DNA of 64,000 nucleotides, taken from Rhodobacteraceae bacterium KLH11 (GTDB lineage Bacteria > Pseudomonadota > Alphaproteobacteria > Rhodobacterales > Rhodobacteraceae). Where the stretch lies: the NCBI GenBank assembly GCA_000158135.1, contig DS999531.1, forward strand, positions 836,132 through 900,131. Direction: 5' to 3'. The translations under genes were made by a program, and so were the position numbers. Below, piece by piece: positions 57,004-57,522 of the stretch (the stretch's first letter is position 1; every line of letters starts with the position of its first letter). The notes under the pieces were generated by a model. It ran no database searches. It saw nothing but the letters and a program-made list of their open reading frames with translations, and was not told the origin of the DNA.

Positions 57004-57120
57004 CTCTGAATTCTTTCATAATATGTAGAAACGCGGGAAAAAACGCGCGGTGTTGGTCGTAATACGACGGGACAGGCTGGCTGAATCTGAGTGCGAAACG
57101 TGCTTCTGTCAGCGAAAATA
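57004..57120. other. Non-coding stretch upstream of the LexA-box promoter
   Basis: No gene or RNA is recognised. Together with 56747-56826 this completes the 446-bp gap between the large periplasmic protein and the small SOS-type gene. Confidence 0.4.
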
Positions 57121-57149
57121 TTGAAAAAGTTCCTAAAATGTTCTATATT
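57121..57149 (+). promoter_or_regulatory. Sigma-70-type promoter TTGAAA-N17-TATATT
   Basis: A -35 (TTGAAA, 57121-57126) and -10 (TATATT, 57144-57149) box with an optimal 17-bp spacer, predicting a start near 57156 and a leader of about 36 nt. The LexA boxes cover its spacer and -10. Confidence 0.75.
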
Positions 57150-57154
57150 TGTTC
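57129..57154. promoter_or_regulatory. Two overlapping LexA boxes (GTTC-N7-GTTC-N7-GTTC)
   Basis: GTTC occurs at 57129, 57140 and 57151, each separated by exactly seven bases. GTTC-N7-GTTC is the established alphaproteobacterial LexA (SOS) box. The three repeats make two overlapping boxes that would block the promoter. Confidence 0.8.
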
Positions 57155-57192
57155 CGCAAAAATATCTGAGGCGGAACGGAGGTATTCGAGCC

Positions 57193-57522
57193 ATGATGAA
57201 CGCTGCCCGTCAAAGCTGGTATGACGCACCCAGTAACGATTACCACTTGCTGCCCGTGACCGACCGGCAGATGCGCTATGCCCGTGCCATTGCTGAACAA
57301 TCGGCGCTTGAAATCCCGGTTGAGGCACAACGTGACCGCAAATCGCTGTCAGACTGGATATCGGCACATAAACCGCATGATCCCTCGCCCTTTGCCAATT
57401 ACCCGACCGGCAAACAGGTTGCCTTTGCTGAACGCATCTCACGCAGTAAACGCCGCCCGATCCCATCTGAGTGTTTTCGCGACAAACACATGATGTCGTG
57501 TTGGATTGACCAGAATAAATAG
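57193..57522 (+). CDS. Predicted SOS-regulated protein with two copies of a 38-residue module
   Basis: A 109-residue cytoplasmic protein of unknown function. Residues 23-60 and 72-109 are two copies of one module that align without gaps with 13 of 38 residues identical; the pattern is T-x2-Q-x3-A-x2-I-x7-I-P-x-E-x2-R-D-x4-S-x-W-I-x3-K. It recalls the small modules appended to some DNA topoisomerases, which hints at a nucleic-acid role, but that is inference. The start at 57193 (MMNAARQSW) has GGAGG 10 nt upstream. Its promoter carries a doubled LexA box, so it should be induced by DNA damage. Ends 6 bp before the convergent channel gene. Confidence 0.8.
   Translation: MMNAARQSWYDAPSNDYHLLPVTDRQMRYARAIAEQSALEIPVEAQRDRKSLSDWISAHKPHDPSPFANYPTGKQVAFAERISRSKRRPIPSECFRDKHMMSCWIDQNK

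Follow-up and report, generated by a model that had tools for sequence, protein, structure and literature searches.

What is the function of a small gene in Rhodobacteraceae bacterium KLH11 whose promoter is overlaid by three GTTC units and whose 109-amino-acid product belongs to no family recognised in the original prediction? The gene lies at positions 57193–57522 of a 64-kb stretch of contig DS999531.1 (hereafter the window; all features described below are on its plus strand). Because a predicted LexA site nearly always covers the promoter of the gene and of its homologues, and because the protein doubles a module found otherwise mainly in topoisomerases, this small roseobacter gene is very probably an undescribed part of the DNA-damage (SOS) response. 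What emerges is a gene family that has yet to be characterised, with a module whose relatives can be recognised; it is no new kind of system. Comparative evidence could hardly make the regulatory claim stronger, while the biochemical role, which we suggest is docking to the hub formed by the single-stranded-DNA-binding protein SSB on single-stranded DNA (ssDNA), is a proposal.

A predicted LexA operator over the promoter

The promoter, read from the sequence, consists of a −35 element TTGAAA (57121–57126) and a −10 element TATATT (57144–57149) separated by a 17-bp spacer. Three GTTC units at 57129–57132, 57140–57143 and 57151–57154, spaced in 11-bp steps, form two overlapping GTTC-N7-GTTC boxes with the middle unit in common. 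Predicted LexA box 1 (GTTCCTAAAATGTTC, 57129–57143) occupies the promoter spacer (register A), and predicted box 2 (GTTCTATATTTGTTC, 57140–57154) lies across the −10 element (register B), an arrangement that the original prediction had given exactly to the base. GTTC-N7-GTTC is described as the alphaproteobacterial LexA target in PMC7987155, and here it overlaps the promoter of the window gene. By eye, a ribosome-binding site (GGAGGT, 57178–57183) precedes the start codon and the gene is apparently a one-gene unit. We rejected an alternative GTG start at 57091, from which the frame is open (143 amino acids), as it lies ahead of the promoter and the alignment of homologues begins close to 57193. 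Across the window GTTC-N7-GTTC occurs six times, compared with a shuffle mean of 1.79, and six matches were reached in 1 of 100 shuffles. The box in the window is therefore weak evidence by itself, and the claim rests on conservation before homologues.

To assess this conservation, we analysed two sets of homologous loci. The first comprised 49 loci (L001–L050 minus the topoisomerase L032), with a box window of 150 bp from a start that, wherever a locus had a box, was chosen downstream of it, introducing a small favourable bias. The exact box was found in 45 of these 49 loci, the reversed pattern in one (shuffle mean, 0.18), and each of the other spacings from 3 to 14 in at most one. The second set, the best 80 of at least 491 confirmed relatives in named genomes, was positioned by match start with a box window of 180 bp; 79 loci carry the box and none the reversed pattern. 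With the nine loci common to both sets counted once, the exact box lies upstream in 115 of 120 distinct loci and the reversed pattern in one. Orthologues lacking the GTTC repeats had been named in advance as an observation that would refute the prediction; only five of the 120 loci lack the exact box, and three of these (L016, L042 and, by eye, L126) miss it by a single base. Another box-less locus, L049, has two-mismatch sites only. The box is likewise present in all five plasmid regions that we fetched, one of which also contains the reversed pattern. The remaining box-less locus, a paralogue in the KLH11 genome (L031), retains one GTTC before its −10 element and has no box within two mismatches, so that, judging from its promoter, it may have left LexA control. 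In an alignment of 52 promoters picked for less than 50% flank identity and an exact box, the flanking columns mostly carry less than 0.2 bit, and the −35 element, the box edges and the −10 element are prominent; that the eight GTTC columns do not vary in this set follows from the selection of its rows by the exact box.

The KLH11 genome encodes one match to the LexA model, above the cut-off. A broad box pattern occurs 181 times in this genome compared with 97 times for its reverse, and such counts by themselves are poor evidence. A narrower pattern gives 29 sites versus six reversed, two of the 29 lying in the window. We read all 29 site loci by eye. Many fall inside genes and look like chance; those preceding genes include sites before lexA, recA, uvrA, a UvrD/PcrA-type helicase gene, an IMS-type polymerase gene (ImuB-like in our reading), mmcB and a PA0069-type radical SAM gene. 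These gene families were checked with Pfam and NCBIfam, and several true starts behind the box were judged by eye. It is extremely unlikely that the boxes represent part of the promoter or the operator of another regulator, rather than LexA sites. The right half of the box does merge with the −10 element (TGTTCTATATT), and part of the box conservation is for this reason promoter conservation, but against nearly random flanks the left GTTC and the 7-bp spacing are retained, and lexA, recA and uvrA of this genome are preceded by the same motif. Together with the box in 115 of 120 loci, the SOS genes of the same genome that carry it strongly support the LexA control originally predicted for the window gene, which very probably holds; from this comparison we infer LexA binding and damage induction. 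The literature texts that we found when looking for this gene and for roseobacter SOS data, among them text of the D. shibae LexA-site paper PMC6473078, name neither the gene nor its LexA binding or induction. In its exact motif over the promoter, common to the SOS genes of its own genome, the window gene resembles the alphaproteobacterial LexA regulon as described in PMC7987155, but its product belongs to no named family, and its operator is found in two registers, sometimes both at once.

These two registers are about 11 bp, or one helical turn, apart. A TTG stands 7–9 bp before the first GTTC in 82 of the 115 distinct box-bearing loci, which therefore have their first box between the −35 and −10 elements. 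In another 29 the TTG is instead 17–20 bp away, placing the box across the −10 element, and four loci have neither spacing. Three GTTC units in 11-bp steps are present in 14 of the 120 loci; 13 of these, including the window, have a TTG spacing of 7–8 bp and contain both registers, and in L088, where the spacing is 18 bp, the extra GTTC lies further downstream. Since overlapping boxes have their middle half-site in common, two LexA dimers cannot sit together; the overlap likely gives LexA another opportunity to occupy the promoter and eases the passage from one register to the other. The homologues provide a natural series for an operator register shift by one helical turn without loss of control.

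A tandem module shared with topoisomerases

The 109-amino-acid protein, defined from ATG to stop and by the alignment of homologues, is predicted by AlphaFold to fold into two tandem three-helix modules. Module 1 (residues 21–60, 57253–57372) and module 2 (residues 71–109, 57403–57519) are delimited by the predicted fold, a module profile and the repeat alignment; module 2, also evident in the homologue alignment, is the better conserved copy. Residues 23–60 align with residues 72–109 without gaps at 13 of 38 identities (BLOSUM62 score 63), and none of 600 protein shuffles equalled 13 identities (best, 10) or this score (best, 36), in agreement with the earlier description of a small protein made of two 38-residue copies.

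Searched as a single sequence, the protein is matched by no model in Pfam, NCBIfam or PHROGs (zero Pfam and NCBIfam families at E ≤ 10, those of DinI, YebG and SulA included), so that the absence of a recognised family, as first noted, holds for these libraries. Pfam scans of 28 members yielded weak, scattered matches, the best at E 0.0022 (TyeA, two members) and the most shared to TfoX_N (nine of 28 members, best E 0.038). The only rows returned from PDB sequences, a glycosyltransferase at E 0.38 for the single sequence and a flavodoxin at E 0.78 for the profile, were discarded as unusable.

The original prediction had also noticed a resemblance to topoisomerase tails, and here a profile search and Pfam agree with it. 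We built a profile from 32 single modules and applied it to a class sample of 289 genomes, scoring up to 25 candidates per genome; 11 genomes matched at E ≤ 0.001, two from the same family and nine from outside it. Seven of these nine carry the module in type IA topoisomerases, immediately following their catalytic part (L169, L170, L171, L173 and L174 confirmed by Pfam; L175 and L176/L181 judged by eye). Of the remaining two matches, one is a 153-amino-acid protein that no Pfam model matches (L172); the other falls at the end of a glycosyltransferase (L177) and is probably due to chance. A phylum sample yielded seven of 299 genomes at E ≤ 1e-4, comprising four in the family, two topoisomerases (by eye) and one 136-amino-acid frame. 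One genome of the family has a topoisomerase (L032) with three module copies, the first of them weak. As the hits outside the family are mostly topoisomerases, the window gene looks like a module that was freed and doubled; among the samples searched, the free tandem form was seen only in this family. Accessory type IA topoisomerases (PF01131) share with the window protein a module of about 40 residues, which follows their catalytic part in one or two copies by profile hidden Markov model and in three in L032. The window protein differs in consisting of two modules alone, at 109 amino acids and behind a LexA box, with no Pfam match to topoisomerase catalytic domains at E ≤ 10. Two alphaproteobacterial proteins each join the module to both a type IA topoisomerase and a RecD2-like helicase within a single chain (L173 by Pfam, L175 by eye).

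For the protein and its paralogue alike, the best-aligned solved structure is the C-terminal domain of lambda Red-beta (PDB 6m9k, 8tg7 and 8tfu), an SSB binder, at low Z scores of 3.8–4.8. The apparent likeness is in a predicted three-helix unit with 41–48 aligned residues, best aligned for both modules and the paralogue; the differences are an identity of 2–11% over the aligned residues, the absence of the annealase domain and the presence of two tandem copies. In sequence searches (phmmer and profile), no Red-beta chain was found at E ≤ 10. Of the 26 rows that Foldseek returned from the PDB at E ≤ 10, not one reached E ≤ 0.001. Against viral models Foldseek returned one row at E ≤ 0.001 (2.3e-4), an uncharacterised 183-amino-acid protein of Aeromonas phage 4L372XY (A0A5B9N7N5).

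Proposed docking to the SSB hub and its alternatives

The structural evidence, although weak, somewhat favours a module that docks proteins over the roles suggested in the original prediction (DNA binding, a nuclease inhibitor or a division inhibitor). We tentatively propose, with a little less than even confidence, a LexA-regulon gene of Rhodobacteraceae/Roseobacteraceae that encodes a damage-induced docking protein for the SSB/ssDNA hub. LexA bound to one of the two overlapping boxes would block RNA polymerase at the spacer and −10 element; upon DNA damage, RecA on ssDNA would cause LexA to be removed, and a small soluble protein would be made. This protein would consist of two free-standing copies, in tandem, of the module that follows the catalytic region in accessory type IA topoisomerases. 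Each three-helix, Red-beta-like module would dock repair proteins to the SSB/ssDNA hub, by binding the C-terminal tip of SSB or a similar acidic peptide, and the two modules together might bridge or crowd two SSB tails. A rather unlikely extension would make this an undescribed class of SOS effector, in which a topoisomerase module, freed, doubled and placed under LexA control, serves roseobacter chromosomes and plasmids as a damage-induced adaptor or decoy for the SSB hub, and whose operator moves from species to species in steps of one helical turn via triple-GTTC intermediates. The proposal connects the probable SOS response with an unnamed module of accessory topoisomerases and makes an SSB-docking role of that module directly testable.

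The modules might instead bind ssDNA or branched DNA directly, giving a small damage-induced DNA-binding protein, with the same module adding DNA affinity in topoisomerases. This would fit the attachment of the module to these enzymes, the conserved basic run in module 2 (among 28 sequences R84 and R87 never vary, and R81 and K86 hardly do) and the homeodomain–DNA pairs among the weak Foldseek rows (E 3.4–5.6). We nevertheless regard it as unlikely, as 17 lysines and arginines against 13 aspartates and glutamates leave the net charge just mildly positive, and as both models aligned best with the Red-beta C-terminal domain, which by itself shows no binding to DNA. Known small SOS-induced, LexA-controlled modulators include DinI, YebG, SbmC and SulA, which the window protein resembles in size and predicted control, but from which it differs in having no Pfam or NCBIfam family match. 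Modelled on DinI, YebG and SbmC/GyrI, it could regulate an enzyme of DNA repair or topology (RecA, a nuclease, gyrase or a topoisomerase), the free tandem competing with an enzyme tail for its partner. Freed copies of a module common to topoisomerases would be natural competitors, but this reading appears improbable given the lack of a family match, and no tail-bearing topoisomerase was seen in the KLH11 genome for the protein to compete with, because the module profile found only the window gene and its paralogue there (four matches at E ≤ 0.001, with 25 of 61 candidates scored). A small product, made from what looks like a single-gene unit behind a LexA-type promoter, would also suit a cell-division inhibitor or other checkpoint protein, such as SulA, SidA and DidA. 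This is very unlikely here, since the predicted helical modules are common to topoisomerases, the sequence contains no long hydrophobic stretch (by eye) and no Pfam or NCBIfam family matches.

Distribution and further LexA-type sites

Among 198 genomes sampled evenly from the same family, 44 had a match at E ≤ 0.01; two of these matches, weak and broken by stop codons (G085 and G112), were left out of every box count. All 61 profile matches at E ≤ 1e-10 in an order sample of 196 genomes fall within the same family, although this sample may contain few or no genomes from elsewhere in the order, because the listed genomes without a match also belong to it. Scanning named genomes gave at least 592 stretches, from which the confirmed relatives used above were drawn; the closest among the named matches listed are a metagenome bin and Ruegeria species, at 78–93% identity, which probably places the source of the window among roseobacters near Ruegeria. 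The paralogue L031 (G000:C3:3685-3975), on a 161-kb contig, is 49% identical to the window protein. Relatives are also present in 147 plasmid records, 73 of them from Pseudosulfitobacter and 76 typed as conjugative, so that the likely SOS response of a major marine bacterial group gains a gene widespread on chromosomes and plasmids. We considered a phage origin, and saw no phage carrier: tblastn against 50,697 phage records gave nothing at E ≤ 0.01 (a single row at E 8), and none of 46 pattern stretches from IMG/VR was confirmed as a relative. By eye, no telling neighbour recurs across the genera examined in 16 of the 80 named loci and five plasmid regions of the 147 records; some flanking genes are common to Ruegeria loci, and a DEAD/DEAH-box helicase about 3 kb away is common to two of the five plasmid regions.

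Some of the other LexA-type sites in the KLH11 genome stand beside genes of separate interest. A 15-mer identical to box 2 (G000:C6:413-427; L051, L063) precedes a reading frame, truncated where the contig ends, whose final residues resemble by eye the start of a serine recombinase; from its sequence, this is a probable further LexA-controlled unit. Another box (L071 1501–1515, G000:C6:1296654-1296668) lies upstream of a resolvase-family recombinase gene, where a mobile element may be using the host LexA. At L078 (G000:C6:2684051-2684065) a box coincides with the start of the PA0069-family radical SAM gene, possibly a further SOS gene, and at L055 1501–1515 (G000:C4:69383-69397) one immediately precedes a gene encoding an Eco57I-type methylase domain.
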